Part shown: positions 17,277 through 60,668 of the stretch, in pieces
How the letters are laid out: every line of letters begins with the position of its first letter
Numbering within the stretch: the stretch's first letter is position 1
Assembly (NCBI RefSeq): GCF_017094485.1
Contig: NZ_CP064786.1
Span: forward strand, 1,240,001-1,304,000
DNA from: Natranaeroarchaeum sulfidigenes
Lineage (GTDB): Archaea > Halobacteriota > Halobacteria > Halobacteriales > Natronoarchaeaceae
Length of the DNA stretch: 64,000 nt
Direction: 5' to 3'
Translations under genes and position numbers: made by a program
Notes under the pieces: model-generated
What the model was told of the DNA's origin: nothing
Seen by the model: only the letters and a program-made list of their open reading frames with translations
Database searches by the model: none

Positions 17277-17975
17277 TCACAAGAGCTGCCGAAACTCACC
17301 GAGCGGCGGGAATCTGTACGTCTCCCCTGTGTCGACGTCCCGGACGATCGGCCGAAACTCGTCGAGATCGTCGATGAGTGGGGAGCCCAACTGGTGTGTC
17401 CGGTTGAGAAGGATCCCCGGGGCAAGCCTGTTGAACGCAGGTAGCACGAGTACGTCGCTCCCCTCGTACACCCCCTCACCGACGAGATAGCACGGCCGAC
17501 GCTGTCCCTCTATTTCGATCGCCGGATGATCGTGACCGATCACGTACCGGTCGGCGTCGGCGGTCGGCGGTTCGTGGCCGTGCAGGACGACGGTCCGCTC
17601 GTCGTCGAGCCTGTACTCCTCGACTGTATCGCCGTCCCACACGTCGTCGAGTAGCCGGTCGTGGTTTCCGATCACAGCTACCGGCGACGCCGCGGCGTCC
17701 TCGACGAGTTCGACGATCGCCGTTAGCGTTCGGCTGGCCTGCAGGGGCACCGTATCGAACGCGTGCAGGATATCGCCGGCGAAGACGACGGTTCCAGGCT
17801 CGAAGCGGTCGAGCAACTGCCTCACTCTGTCGAGCAAGTCCCCACGCTCGCCCAGCGGCAACTCGACATTCGAGGCGGCGTCTCGCCCGACGTGCAGGTC
17901 GGCGAGAACGAGGGCGTCGGCGTCGGGAACGTAGATGGAGCGCCGACCGATCCGCGGGTCAGTCGTCCCCGCCAT
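17277..17975 (-). CDS. Metallophosphoesterase (ICC-like)
   Basis: 232 aa calcineurin-like phosphoesterase. All five metal-ligand blocks are visible: DLHVGRD, AGDILHAFD, GNHDRLLD, LHGHEPP and GHDHPAI. Proteins of this COG1407 type hydrolyse phosphodiesters, but the substrate is unknown. It overlaps the end of the archaeosortase gene by 17 bases on the same strand, so the two are co-transcribed and translationally coupled. Confidence 0.9.
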   Translation of the reverse strand: MAGTTDPRIGRRSIYVPDADALVLADLHVGRDAASNVELPLGERGDLLDRVRQLLDRFEPGTVVFAGDILHAFDTVPLQASRTLTAIVELVEDAAASPVAVIGNHDRLLDDVWDGDTVEEYRLDDERTVVLHGHEPPTADADRYVIGHDHPAIEIEGQRRPCYLVGEGVYEGSDVLVLPAFNRLAPGILLNRTHQLGSPLIDDLDEFRPIVRDVDTGETYRFPPLGEFRQLL

Positions 17976-18900
17976 CCGTCATAACGGGCTCCATCCCGAG
18001 GTCGGCGCGGAGGTCGTACTCGTCGCCGGTCAGGATATAGAGTAGATCATCGAGCACGTCGAACAGCTCGGGGACGATGCGGACGACGAGCAGGGTGATG
18101 CCGACGAGCGCGACGATCGAGAGCGTCTGGGAGATCAGGTGATGGGAGACGAAAAAGGAGGTTCGCATCCCTTCACCCGCGAGCGTCGCCGTGATCGTGT
18201 TGAAGACGCCGTAGTCGAACCAGCCCAGCGGGGCGGCGAGACCGACGAAGACGTTCCGGGCGAGGTTGAGGATCCAGATCACGCCGACAGCGACCGCGAA
18301 CGCGGCGAGCTTTCGGCGAAGCGGCGCGCGGACTGCGGCGATCAGCCCGCCGAAGATCGAGATGCTCCCGATCCCGGTACACGCCAGCACGATGTACGTC
18401 GAGTAGCCCTCGAACGCAAAGCGGCTCTGGTAGCCGTTCATCCCCTCCTCGATCCCCGGCGAGTAGCCGAGCAGTTGCATCCCCATGTGAGACTGGATCG
18501 TTACGGTCTCGATGAGCCACATCTTCAGCGGCTCGATCGTCGTGAAGGGCAGATAGATGATCCCCATCAGCCCGACCGCGCGAGTCAGGGTCAACAGCGA
18601 ATCGCGCCCGCCATAGAGTAGATACCCGGTGTAGACACACAGCGGCAGTCCGGCGAGGCTAAGAATCGTCTGCAGGGGGCTCTGTGCGTCGTAGTAGAAG
18701 TACGGCATCATCGTCAGCCAGAAGACGCCGAACAGCGCCCACGCAACACTGCCGGCGTACCGGGCGTGTTTCCTGTTGCCCGCGAGGTCGAGTGCGGCCG
18801 TCAGGAGGAACGCACCGATGGCGACCCAGACGAAGTGGGCCGTCGGATCGAACGACGTGAACGCGTCGACCACGAGCGGGGTACTCGAAGCTACTGTCAC
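17959..18900 (-). CDS. artA: Archaeosortase A
   Basis: 313 aa integral membrane protein. ArtA cuts PGF-CTERM surface proteins (including the S-layer glycoprotein) and hands the new C-terminus to a lipid. The catalytic triad is visible as Cys in LACTGIGSIS, Arg in NLARNVFVG and His in SHHLISQT. The frame is open further upstream to 19002, but a TATA-like TTTAA box 24 bases before the GTG at 18900 supports this start as leaderless. No PGF-CTERM substrate is encoded in the window. The divergent neighbour is a winged-helix regulator. Confidence 0.93.
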   Translation of the reverse strand: MTVASSTPLVVDAFTSFDPTAHFVWVAIGAFLLTAALDLAGNRKHARYAGSVAWALFGVFWLTMMPYFYYDAQSPLQTILSLAGLPLCVYTGYLLYGGRDSLLTLTRAVGLMGIIYLPFTTIEPLKMWLIETVTIQSHMGMQLLGYSPGIEEGMNGYQSRFAFEGYSTYIVLACTGIGSISIFGGLIAAVRAPLRRKLAAFAVAVGVIWILNLARNVFVGLAAPLGWFDYGVFNTITATLAGEGMRTSFFVSHHLISQTLSIVALVGITLLVVRIVPELFDVLDDLLYILTGDEYDLRADLGMEPVMTDGGDD

Positions 18901-18918
18901 TGGTCCGTGGTAGTCTCC

Positions 18919-18928
18919 GCTTAAACAT
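18919..18928 (-). promoter_or_regulatory. TATA-type promoter of artA
   Basis: On the minus strand this reads ATGTTTAAGC, a haloarchaeal TATA box about 24 bases upstream of the GTG at 18900. The position is the reason for choosing that start: transcription would begin at or next to the codon. Confidence 0.6.
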
Positions 18929-19041
18929 AGGCCTATCGGGACCGGATCCGGCCGACACTCGACCGTCGATGACGACCGAACGGTCGGGTGAGACGCCGAC
19001 ACCGTGGTGTTTTTTTACTGCTGCGTGGTAACCGTGTGGAT

Positions 19042-19821
19042 ATGTCCGACGTCCTCGAAAACAAACGGTCCGCGACACGATTTCGCATCCTCGTCGAAAT
19101 AGCGGACCGACAACCCGCGGTAAGTCAGGGTGAGATCGCCGACGCCGTCGGCGTTACGAGTCAGGCGGTCAGCGAGTACATTCGTGAACTCGTTGATGAC
19201 GACCTCGTGGAGAAGGAGGGCAGGTCACGCTACCGGATCACGAAGGAGGGCGTCGACTGGCTCCTGTCCGAGGCGGCTGACGTGCGCCGCTTTGCTGATC
19301 ACGTCACCGAAGACATCCTCGGTAACGTACAGGAAGACGCCGCGATTGCCGCGGCTGTGATCGAGGAGGGTGAAAGCGTCACGTTAACTGTCGAAGACGG
19401 ACTATTGCGTGCGACACCGGGGGAGTCGGGGCCAGCCACCGGCGTCGCGACGACGGACGCGGACGCGGGCGAGGACGTTGGTGTCACCGGCTTCGAGGGG
19501 ATCATCGATCTCGATCCCGGCGACGTAACCGTCCTCCAGATCCCGCCGGTCCGGTCCGGGGGGAGCCGTGCCGTCGATTTCCCTGCTCTTGCCGAGCGTT
19601 CGTCGAGCGCCGATATCGTTGCCGCTGCGGGCGTCGAGGCGGTCGTCGCACTGCGCGGTGCAGACGTCGATATCGACACGCGGTTCGCCGCTGGCGAGGT
19701 TGCGGTCGATGCCGCAAGCCGCGGGCTGGACGTTCTCGTGGCATCGACCATCGACAACGTCGGGCGCGTAACGGACGCGCTACGGGATGCGGAAGTCGCG
19801 TACGAAGTGTCGGAATTGTGA
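19042..19821 (+). CDS. Winged-helix transcriptional regulator with C-terminal sensing domain
   Basis: 259 aa. Residues 1-75 are a MarR-like winged helix (VSQGEIADAVGVTSQAVSEYIREL is the recognition region, then the wing GRSRYRITKEG). Residues 85-259 form an alpha/beta region with repeated Asp-Val strands and no enzymatic motif, probably a ligand-binding or dimerisation domain of a haloarchaeal family. It is divergent from artA with about 140 bases between starts, so control of artA is plausible but unproven. Confidence 0.8.
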   Translation: MSDVLENKRSATRFRILVEIADRQPAVSQGEIADAVGVTSQAVSEYIRELVDDDLVEKEGRSRYRITKEGVDWLLSEAADVRRFADHVTEDILGNVQEDAAIAAAVIEEGESVTLTVEDGLLRATPGESGPATGVATTDADAGEDVGVTGFEGIIDLDPGDVTVLQIPPVRSGGSRAVDFPALAERSSSADIVAAAGVEAVVALRGADVDIDTRFAAGEVAVDAASRGLDVLVASTIDNVGRVTDALRDAEVAYEVSEL

Positions 19822-19823
19822 TA

Positions 19824-20426
19824 TCAACGCGCGTGTTCTTTCGCGGCGTCGTATGCCTCCTGTAATCGTCTGAACTCCTCGCGGTCGCCGCCGTGGTCTG
19901 GATGGACATCGATCACACGGTCCCGATACGCCCGTTCGATCTCCTTGATCTCCGCGTCTGTCGATAGCCCCAGTTCCGTGAAGGCTCCGGTTGGGACACC
20001 CCCGGATCGATCAATCGTCACGGTTGGCGTCTCGAAGGGGAGCCTGCTCCCGAGCGCAATGCCCGGCAGTTCGTGCTCGACCAGCACCGCTTCGACGTCA
20101 TTGGACCGGAGCTGGAAGTACACGTGCGCGTCGAACGTCACCGCAACCCCCCGTGTCGGCAGATAAAAATCGACGTGTTGATCGTCGATCGTGCGTCCTT
20201 CCTCGTAGCGCTCTCCGATCGCATCGAAGTAATGTCTGATCTCGGCGCGGCGGCGTGCCATCCCGTCGCCGCTCCCGTCGGTCCGGCGCTTTTGCCGATC
20301 TGGAGATGACGGTATCAGGCGCTGTCCGGCGAGGAAGATCCCGGCTACGATTACCGAAAACACCCCCGCAAGGGCGACGCCAACGACGAGCCAGTCGGGG
20401 AATGTGGTGAGTGTCTGCCAGGCCAC
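19824..20426 (-). CDS. Membrane-anchored protein with C-terminal J domain
   Basis: 200 aa. One hydrophobic helix near residues 14-34 (VVGVALAGVFSVIVAGIFLAG) is followed by a basic linker and a beta-rich middle domain (60-145). The C-terminal J domain has DVHPDHGGD (HPD intact). The order TM, middle domain, then J domain resembles the DjlA layout and would place the J domain in the cytoplasm. It is the second J-domain protein in 7 kb with no Hsp70 gene in view. The stop lies two bases from that of the convergent regulator. Confidence 0.8.
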   Translation of the reverse strand: MAWQTLTTFPDWLVVGVALAGVFSVIVAGIFLAGQRLIPSSPDRQKRRTDGSGDGMARRRAEIRHYFDAIGERYEEGRTIDDQHVDFYLPTRGVAVTFDAHVYFQLRSNDVEAVLVEHELPGIALGSRLPFETPTVTIDRSGGVPTGAFTELGLSTDAEIKEIERAYRDRVIDVHPDHGGDREEFRRLQEAYDAAKEHAR

Positions 20427-20551
20427 GGCCGGAATAAGCGTTGGATACTAATGAACGTCTCGGGCGCGGCAACGATACCAGATCTGAGATGCCCTGAACC
20501 GCACTCCGAATACATTCGACAGCTCGTACACCTCAGCGGTCTAATTATTGC

Positions 20552-20639
20552 ACTTCGGGATACGAAGTGGATAACTTCGAATATTGTAGTGAACAGCTTC
20601 GAAACTCGTAGTGTGTTGCTTCGAATTCAATAGTAAAGT
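20552..20639. repeat. Four degenerate palindromic repeats at exact 22-bp period
   Basis: Units begin at 20552, 20574, 20596 and 20618. The unit consensus is RCTTCGAA-n(3)-CGTAGT followed by five less conserved bases. The first unit contains the perfect dyad ACTTCG-GGATA-CGAAGT, and the others keep the outer half-sites. TTCG recurs at 20554, 20576, 20598 and 20620. The array lies in the divergent intergenic region between the membrane J-domain gene and the metzincin lipoprotein, ending 74 bases before the latter. A 22-bp period is two helical turns, which suits cooperative binding of a regulator on one face. Confidence 0.75.
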
Positions 20640-20713
20640 ACCGGCATCGATATTCGACCGAGCACTCCGGCCGCAACACTCAATTGTTCTCTCGCCAAGT
20701 TCTAGTAGCCACC

Positions 20714-21682
20714 GTGAACCGCCGAACACTACTACTCTCCGTCGGCGCTGTCTGTGCCGGGGCCGCTGGCTGCACTGAACTGGAAGAGGCTGGCGAGCGC
20801 ATCTCCGCGGCGACGGGTCCCGATCGCCCCTGGGCCAACCTACCGGTAACCGTTACCCTCGACGATCAGACCGAGGACGGCCGGGAGGGGTTCGAGGAGC
20901 TGCTCCGGCAGGGGATGGCCTACTGGGAGGATCACAGCGAGGAGTACGCGGGCTACGAGATCAAGTACACATTCGATCCGGACCTCGACGATCACGAGGA
21001 CGCCGATATCGTGGTCGAACTGGTAGAGGACGTCCAGACGTGCTCCGTCGAGGGGCACGATCAGGAGGCAGTCGGGTGTGCGCCAGTTATCACCGACAGT
21101 GCCCCCGATACGGCGACGGTCGAGATCAAGGACGGGTTCTCTGACGACCTCACGCTCGTCACGATCAAACACGAGTTCGGCCACACGCTCGGGCTGGGCC
21201 ACGACGACGAGCCACAGGAGATCATGTCCTCGGATCCCGCCGACCGTATCCCCGACTACGAGACGCGCGTCAACATCCACGAGCGGTATCGTGAGACGGT
21301 GGGGCGGATCAACGAGGGGACGAGTCGATTTAATGAGGGGATAGAATATGGCACAGATCGGGAGTGGGAAGCGGCCCAGGAACAGTTCGAAAAGGCAACT
21401 GAACACTACGACTGGGCACACACAGAACTCTCCGAGATGCGCGACGACGCCGAGGCGATCGAAGCGGACGGGGCGGTCGAGCTACTCACCGAGGCCGAAA
21501 ACTTCACTCGGTACTACGGAGAGGCAGGGAAACTGTTCGCACAGGAAGCCAGAGCACGAGCTGATGGTGATCACATCGAGGCCGAACAGTATCAGAACGA
21601 GGCCAGAGAGGCAGTCGAAGCGGCACGGGAGTACGATGTCGAGGTCGGGTATACTCTCGCCGAAGCGCTTGGACTGCAGTGA
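20714..21682 (+). CDS. Tat-exported lipoprotein with metzincin-type zinc protease domain
   Basis: 322 aa from the GTG at 20714. The N-terminus NRRTLLLSVGAVCAGAAGC has a twin arginine, a hydrophobic stretch and a lipobox Cys at 20, so it is probably exported folded and lipid-anchored outside. Residues 40-175 form a matrixin-like domain with HEFGHTLGLGH (zinc His 153, 157, 163; Glu 154) and a nearby Met-turn candidate (IMSSD). Residues 195-320 are helical and Glu/Ala-rich, possibly a coiled stalk. The 22-bp repeats lie just upstream. Substrates are unknown. Confidence 0.87.
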   Translation: MNRRTLLLSVGAVCAGAAGCTELEEAGERISAATGPDRPWANLPVTVTLDDQTEDGREGFEELLRQGMAYWEDHSEEYAGYEIKYTFDPDLDDHEDADIVVELVEDVQTCSVEGHDQEAVGCAPVITDSAPDTATVEIKDGFSDDLTLVTIKHEFGHTLGLGHDDEPQEIMSSDPADRIPDYETRVNIHERYRETVGRINEGTSRFNEGIEYGTDREWEAAQEQFEKATEHYDWAHTELSEMRDDAEAIEADGAVELLTEAENFTRYYGEAGKLFAQEARARADGDHIEAEQYQNEAREAVEAAREYDVEVGYTLAEALGLQ

Positions 21683-21692
21683 ACAGGGACTT

Positions 21693-21986
21693 TCAGAACC
21701 CGTACCGTTTGTGCGCGTCGTCGATCGGTAGGATTTCGAGAACGCGGACTTCACCATCGTCCTCGATTACAGTGTAAATCGCCGTGTACGTCCGCGAAAT
21801 GTGCATTCGAAACCGATCACGGCGACCGTCGATCGGAAGCTTCTCTTTGTCTCCGCGACCTCGCCCAGGGTAGGGATTGTCGGCGAGATAGCCGAGCTTC
21901 TCTTTGCAGACTCTGGTGGTCTTGTCATCAGCTACCGAGAGGAACTCGCTCGCATCCTCGCCGAGTAACACGTCGTACTCAGACAT
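21693..21986 (-). CDS. RelE/ParE-family toxin
   Basis: 97 aa, the standard size of RelE-type toxins. The pattern is a helical N-terminus (LLGEDASEFLSVADDKTTRVC), a basic loop (GRGRGDKEKLP) and the core strand FRMHISRTYTAIYTV followed by VRVLEILPI. RelE toxins cleave mRNA on the ribosome. It overlaps the antitoxin gene by eight bases, antitoxin first, the usual order. Confidence 0.85.
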   Translation of the reverse strand: MSEYDVLLGEDASEFLSVADDKTTRVCKEKLGYLADNPYPGRGRGDKEKLPIDGRRDRFRMHISRTYTAIYTVIEDDGEVRVLEILPIDDAHKRYGF

Positions 21987-22173
21987 CTTCGAGCGCGGTT
22001 AGTTCGTCGCCGTCTTGCCCTTCGAGTTCCCGGAACCGACGCTCAAGGTCTTCACGACGGCGTGCCTGCGCGAGTTCCTGGAGCAGGTCATCGTACGTCT
22101 GCCCCGGTTCTTTCAGCTCGTGTAGTTCTTTCCGGGTTTCCTCGGTGACCGGAATACGTTTGTCGGCGGACAT
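21979..22173 (-). CDS. Antitoxin of RelE-type pair
   Basis: 64 aa. A short N-terminal ribbon (KRIPVTEETRKELHELK) and a long acidic helix with many Glu/Arg residues resemble the haloarchaeal antitoxins found directly upstream of RelE toxins (DUF7557-like). The N-terminal ribbon-helix-helix-like part probably binds its own promoter, and the C-terminal helix neutralises the toxin. AT-rich DNA upstream (22185-22210) is the likely autoregulated promoter. Confidence 0.8.
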   Translation of the reverse strand: MSADKRIPVTEETRKELHELKEPGQTYDDLLQELAQARRREDLERRFRELEGQDGDELTALEDV

Positions 22174-59896: not shown

Positions 59897-60056
59897 TGTT
59901 CCCCCAAGCAGTTATCCAACTATCAGACAGATAAACGTACAGGGGTACCGAACCTACTTCGACGCCAATACGACTGGCTTCTGGGCCGTTCGTTTTCACG
60001 TCAGTAGTGAGGCTAGCCAAGTGACAACAAAAAATCGTGTACGCTCGACGACTACA

Positions 60057-60668
60057 CTACTCGAAGTGATCGAGGCACTTCGCGTACTCTTCGCTTGCCT
60101 TGTCCCAGTCGACGACCTCGAAGAACGCGCTGATGAAGTCACCGCGTGCCGGTCCGTAGTCGTAGTAGTAAGAGTGCTCCCAGACGTCGAGTGCGAGGAT
60201 CGGGTGTGCGCCCCAGAGAGCGCCCTGGTCGTGTTTGTCGACCGCGACGTTACGCAGTTGCTTGGCAACAGGGTCGTACACGAGCAGTGCCCAGCCTCCT
60301 GCGGCGCTCGCAGCGGCCTCGAACTCGCCCTTCCAGCCTTCATAAGAACCGAAGTCCTCCTCGATACGGTCGAGCAGGTCGCCCTCGGGTTCGCCGCCAC
60401 CGTTGGGATCCATGTTCTCCCAGAACAGCGTGTGGAGATAGTGTCCACAGCCGTTGTGAGTAACGTTACCGAGCGCGCCCGCGGAGCTACCGAAGTCTCC
60501 ACTTTCGCGGTTCTCGGCGAGGGTCTCCTCGGCACTGGCGAGGCCGTTCACGTAGCCCTGATGGTGGGTGTCGTGGTGCCACGTCAGCACTTGCTCGGAG
60601 ATGTGCGGTTCGAGCGCATCGTAGTCGTACGGGAGCGGCGGCAGTTCGGGATCGGATTGTTCTGGCAT
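60057..60668 (-). CDS. sod: Manganese/iron superoxide dismutase
   Basis: 203 aa from the ATG at 60668. Metal ligands appear as His in LTWHHDTHHQGYVNG, His in NGCGHYLHTLFW, and Asp and His in ALDVWEHSYYYDY. It converts superoxide to peroxide and oxygen. A Shine-Dalgarno-like GGAGGAG lies 8 bases upstream, unlike the leaderless neighbours, and an AT-rich AAACGTTTAA dyad about 38-45 bases upstream is a probable promoter or operator. Downstream of the photolyase on the same strand. Confidence 0.96.
   Translation of the reverse strand: MPEQSDPELPPLPYDYDALEPHISEQVLTWHHDTHHQGYVNGLASAEETLAENRESGDFGSSAGALGNVTHNGCGHYLHTLFWENMDPNGGGEPEGDLLDRIEEDFGSYEGWKGEFEAAASAAGGWALLVYDPVAKQLRNVAVDKHDQGALWGAHPILALDVWEHSYYYDYGPARGDFISAFFEVVDWDKASEEYAKCLDHFE

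Follow-up and report, generated by a model that had tools for sequence, protein, structure and literature searches.

Dispersed intergenic arrays of a 17-bp dyad on a 22-bp lattice in the haloarchaeon Natranaeroarchaeum sulfidigenes

An array of four short dyads in the chromosome of Natranaeroarchaeum sulfidigenes belongs to a dispersed site system of about 43 conserved arrays. It lies in the window, the stretch of 64,000 nucleotides analysed here (G000:C1:1240001-1304000, where G000 is the window's genome, a haloarchaeal single-contig chromosome of 3,041,127 bases), and had been taken from sequence for a local regulatory site of the neighbouring protease gene. Similar arrays in about 42 other gaps, ten of the 43 arrays being situated between two 3' ends, argue against this role, and the array is probably a landing site for a chromosome-wide DNA-binding protein rather than a protease switch. 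The explanation we favour, with confidence just short of even, is that the arrays are dispersed intergenic binding arrays of a putative sequence-specific protein, which would have a chromosomal role and not the control of adjacent genes.

The array in the window and its neighbourhood

Four 17-bp imperfect dyads occupy 20552-20634 of the window, and their starts at 20552, 20574, 20596 and 20618, with a pitch of exactly 22 bp, agree with the sequence-only reading. Unit 1 (20552-20568, minus strand) has the perfect ACTTCG/CGAAGT dyad ascribed to it, yet it is the furthest from the consensus, with the weakest score against the genome-wide model (8 bits versus 14-32 bits). Unit 2 (20574-20590, plus strand) is the exact consensus ACTTCGAANNNTGTAGT (32 bits), and it is followed on the same strand by unit 3 (20596-20612, 15 bits) and unit 4 (20618-20634, 14 bits); CTTCGAA...(G)TAGT is common to units 2-4. 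The next lattice position upstream (20530-20546) is degenerate in the window (-9 bits), and a recognisable unit is found in the sister species G001 one lattice step further out than the window array (locus L118). The units are separated by spacers of 5 bp, with no unique spacers of more than about 20 bp, and the earlier statement that this is not a CRISPR array holds. Generic repeat and tandem-repeat finders did not detect the window array because its copies are too divergent. At up to three mismatches, ACTTCGAANNNTGTAGT has nine matches in the window, four of which make up the array, against a mean of 3.33 in shuffled sequences, none of 100 shuffles reaching nine. The only window site outside the array at up to two mismatches is a single one on the minus strand (60051-60067), which coincides in part with the final codons of a superoxide dismutase-like gene ending at 60057 (name read off the translation) and is kept in G001.

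The array is held by an intergenic interval of 287 bp (20427-20713). On one side is the divergent gene of a membrane J-domain protein (19824-20426, minus strand; PF00226, E 3.1e-8), and on the other is the gene of a metzincin-like lipoprotein (20714-21682, plus strand), the presumed protease, with a zinc site, HEFGHTLGLGH, recognised in its sequence and a weak Peptidase_M10 match slightly below the Pfam cut-off. That no regulator gene is adjacent is correct for these two immediate neighbours, but a MarR-like HTH/DUF7839 gene (18988-19818) is found one gene further. A multi-pass membrane protein without a Pfam match, which we take to resemble an archaeosortase, is encoded at 17959-19002. On the 3' side of the protease gene, a ParE-like toxin gene and a small antitoxin-like gene (DUF7557/VapB) adjoin each other at 21693-22173.

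A genome-wide set of arrays

In G000, ACTTCGAANNNTGTAGT occurs at 47 sites with up to one mismatch and at 83 with up to two, as compared with none and three, respectively, for a reversed-pattern control, and a looser pattern searched exactly gives 22 matches genome-wide versus none for its control. The sites fall in about 43 arrays of one to five units each. Many matches to the motif do exist elsewhere in the genome, as the sequence-only reading had considered, but they form a genome-wide system and are not random matches. In the position table built from 47 G000 and 59 G001 sites, the unit is an asymmetric dyad with the half-sites ACTTCG and ACTACA, and weaker half-site copies appear one lattice step off on both sides. 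The 58 successive spacings within the 43 arrays of G000 are 22 bp (45), 21 bp (6), 44 bp (6) and 41 bp (1), and the 63 within 44 arrays of G001 are 22 bp (53), 44 bp (7) and 21 bp (3). Both unit orientations occur within one array. Across the arrays, no shared sequence was found beyond the lattice. The spacers are no more alike within arrays than between them (0.339 versus 0.334), and thus recent tandem duplication is not seen.

The count of 43 leaves out L053, whose site is within a coding gene, and L055, a single weak, chance-like site adjoining a hairpin at about 2210-2260 of that locus, which is presumably an IS605-like end. A weak in-gene site at L036:5487 (genome position 265486) was ignored, and four weak, isolated places from the search at up to two mismatches (595787, 1028582, 1373094 and 1643091) are uncounted. 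Also outside the 43 are L078 and L102, known as strong sites from G001 only; in G000, L078 corresponds to a weak site (15 bits) and L102 to none.

Conservation in the genus

In G001, the single further genome found for this genus, ACTTCGAANNNTGTAGT has 59 sites at up to one mismatch. The window array is conserved there, with its register kept and its spacers changed, contrary to the lack of conservation in related species that had been named as evidence against an element. When places were mapped by flank alignment, a G001 site of at least 11 bits was found within 120 bp for 40 of the 43 arrays; the G001 partner of L061 has a site 419 bp away, and L038 and L064 had no partner among the fetched loci. 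Over 95 sites, the identity between G000 and G001 is 0.68-0.92 in motif columns and 0.40-0.63 in spacer columns, some alignment positions without a value being scored as non-identical, and of the 87 sites that score 15 bits or more, 72 have an aligned G001 counterpart of at least 8 bits. Since the motif columns are more alike between the species than the spacers, the motif is read as being under purifying selection and not as a decaying repeat. The earlier suggestion that bound proteins would be aligned on one face of the helix is plausible, the 22-bp register and this two-species footprint being in its favour.

Among 392 genomes of the order, the exact unit is present in four, namely G000 (18 matches), G001 (32) and two others with one match each, and is thus absent from 388 of the 390 genomes outside the genus pair. 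In 38 further relatives searched at up to one mismatch, there is at most one match apiece. The exact two-unit pattern gave three scattered matches in unrelated bacteria in genome_contigs, consistent with chance, and none in viral contigs, in searches that may omit the window's own genome. No similar array was found in 72,556 plasmid and 50,697 phage records. Lag-22 autocorrelation gave no signal in G005, a genome of the sister genus, or, with weak power, in a 400-kb sample of G002. Literature searches, largely outside subscription journals, found no report of such arrays.

Placement relative to genes

All 43 arrays are within or overlap intergenic gaps, of which 22 are tandem, 11 divergent and 10 convergent, on gene calls from a simple codon-usage script that may be wrong in single cases. 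Convergent gaps are over-represented when the remaining gaps of 90 bp or longer in the same loci serve as the reference (p 0.009), although the excess varies with the minimum gap length, p being 0.16 when gaps from 10 bp upwards are admitted, 0.044 from 20 bp and about 0.010 from 30-90 bp. The median distance from array to start codon is 79.5 bp (range 34 to 288, never below 34) and that to the stop codon is 43.5 bp, down to overlap, the two distributions being different (p 1.5e-6). Arrays in convergent gaps are about as strong as the others in median best-site score (27.0 bits, versus 29.0 in divergent and 29.3 in tandem gaps) and in units per array (2.80, versus 2.36 and 2.14). The strand of the unit is opposite to transcription in 28 cases and the same in 19, which as bare counts show no clear preference. 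The genes flanking the arrays look functionally mixed as judged by eye; one array (L072, 2260-2320) is upstream of a gene for a MutS-domain-V/HhH protein. Along the chromosome, the positions of 44 places (the 43 arrays and the weak L078 counterpart) are indistinguishable from random (gap CV p 0.24, Rayleigh p 0.41), and thus the origin clustering known for parS is not seen.

The arrays might instead be operators for a global transcription regulator specific to the genus, those upstream of promoters activating or repressing and the convergent ones controlling antisense or unannotated transcripts, which we regard as unlikely but the best placed of the alternatives. At least one start codon is bordered by 33 of the 43 arrays, which are in tandem or divergent gaps, the window array itself being in a divergent gap between two genes, and thus a regulatory role at part of the arrays is still conceivable. 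The array edges that come closest to a start codon lie 34-75 bp from it, which fits upstream activator sites. On the other hand, the ten arrays that border no start codon are of about equal strength and unit number, and the distances to start codons are spread over the range given above with no fixed position. The only regulator gene tested as the source of the binder, a TetR gene next to L060 and the sole TetR gene adjoining an array, was rejected. It is not genus-specific, having orthologues of 68-72% identity in the sister genus, g3, and these have no such sites nearby.

Drifted sites and gap history in the sister genus

The closest genus by protease and TetR comparisons is g3, of which G005 was examined over 1.58 Mb. 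The related word CTTCAGAGTTCGAAG occurs three times in contig 1 of G005 (C1:119972, 793062 and 1385695; loci L167/L168, L201 and L231), while 300 shuffled words gave no occurrence. A partner unit accompanies two of these sites, at a distance of 22 or 23 bp. Two of the three are in gaps between convergent genes, or three of four when a fourth site with two mismatches is included. In the nearest genus, these sites make up a small family whose motif has drifted. One of them, with two units, precedes the MutS-like gene that in G000 has array L072 upstream, for which about 0.2 such coincidences would be expected by a rough estimate; it is possibly an ancestral position, although this is only suggestive.

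The J-domain and protease genes are a divergent pair in G005 as well, separated by 101 bp without an array. Seven array intervals had adjacent orthologues in G005. L033 and L041, whose G005 gaps exceed those of G000 by over 400 bp, were dropped together with L055, and the other four were compared. The gap is longer in G000 in all four (287/101, 121/71, 196/94 and 154/122 bp in G000/G005), which differs from a median difference of -11 bp in 15 control gaps (p 0.009), controls shorter than 60 bp, or with a difference of 400 bp upwards, having been dropped. The longer array gaps imply that DNA was added at some point, or else was lost in g3.

These lengths would fit an origin from a short intergenic repeat, mobile or REP/MITE-like. 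It would have spread in the common ancestor of the genus and now persist as remnants, some of them retained for use by a host protein. The convergent gaps with an array have a median of 174 bp, versus 9 bp without, and the intergenic, random-like distribution of the arrays is also what such a repeat might leave. We nevertheless give this origin a somewhat lower chance than a regulon, because there is no common sequence beyond the lattice, the spacers are equally alike within and between arrays, and the motif columns are selectively kept. Furthermore, no consistent hairpin is formed, z being -0.67 to -1.26 in six of eight folds and -2.47 and -3.68 in the other two.

Stop codons are often abutted by arrays, as would fit a processing or termination signal in 3' UTRs, but an RNA-level element is very improbable: units are found on either strand both inside a single array and with respect to transcription, 11 of the 43 arrays are in divergent gaps, and an Rfam search of 20350-20850 gave no match at E up to 1. 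A chance repeat is refuted, virtually beyond doubt, by the excess of sites over the control, the conservation in two species and the near restriction to the genus.

A putative chromosomal role

The arrays ignore gene orientation and spare core promoters, which suggests a role directed at the chromosome rather than at a neighbouring promoter. As binding arrays of a chromosomal protein, they might work as follows. Every asymmetric dyad of 17 bp would be covered by a dimer, and dimers on adjacent units, at a distance of two helical turns, would touch on one face of the DNA and bind cooperatively, which is suggested by the strict two-turn register together with the dyad unit and the selection on the motif. 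The job of the array would then be chromosomal, that is, organisation, segregation, or a boundary or roadblock between transcription units. A more specific version, which we hold only tentatively and consider rather doubtful, is a fast-evolving archaeal chromosome-organising system, in which a protein polymerises on 22-bp intergenic lattices regardless of gene direction to form boundaries or partition sites. The lattice would have been seeded by inserted DNA in one genus, the nearest genus having few sites of a drifted, more symmetric motif.

If the arrays are structural, they provide a ready bait for the binder and a tractable model of chromosome partition or insulation in archaea, and the two-species comparison and the drifted motif of the sister genus illustrate a way in which a system of this kind may originate and expand. 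To our knowledge, dispersed sequence-specific sites that do not form a promoter regulon have hardly been described in Archaea apart from those of SegB, and we know of none in haloarchaea, for which our paper searches found none either.

Comparison with known systems

Several known systems share single traits with the arrays. The iterons of plasmid replication have units of 17-22 bp at about 22 bp, matching the arrays in unit size and pitch, but here about 43 chromosomal places are involved, with no plasmid or phage match. Iterons of a plasmid or virus were also rejected for the window array itself, which adjoins J-domain and protease genes and not a rep gene at a replicon origin. The REP/BIME elements of bacteria are short, intergenic, lineage-specific and common at gene 3' ends. 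The arrays are likewise intergenic, dispersed and lineage-specific, although they have neither a consistent hairpin nor a conserved body and instead present a binding motif on a fixed 22-bp lattice. The SlmA and Noc sites of bacterial nucleoid occlusion are single and partly within genes. They are chromosomal and sequence-specific, like the arrays, and the protein bound to them has its effect on cell processes and not on neighbouring genes, as is proposed here.

The haloarchaeal histone HstA has a palindromic motif, TCGNSSNCGA, with 11-bp periodicity at its targets; it shows no intergenic preference, and the motif matched 11,630 places (PMC10128011). The unit described here is also haloarchaeal and palindromic, but as compared by eye, it does not conform to the TCGNSSNCGA core and is nearly confined to one genus.

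SegB, of the SegAB chromosome segregation system of Sulfolobales, binds the consensus TCTAGASTCTAGA, and about 83% of its sites are inside genes, several being clustered at segAB; in S. solfataricus, 39 ChIP peaks and 46-49 dispersed palindromic sites were tied by the authors to chromosome organisation (PMC12284271). Both systems are archaeal and have dispersed palindromic sites in similar number, which for SegB do not form a promoter regulon and here probably do not. On the side of the proteins, there are 11 ParA-like AAA_31 matches. Their motifs are unrelated, the unit here being ACTTCGAANNNTGTAGT and that of SegB TCTAGASTCTAGA, and the arrays are almost all intergenic, unclustered and set on a 22-bp lattice, while SegB sites are mostly in genes. 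The arrays are therefore not classed as SegB, from which they differ in motif, placement and lattice, yet SegB is their nearest working analogue.
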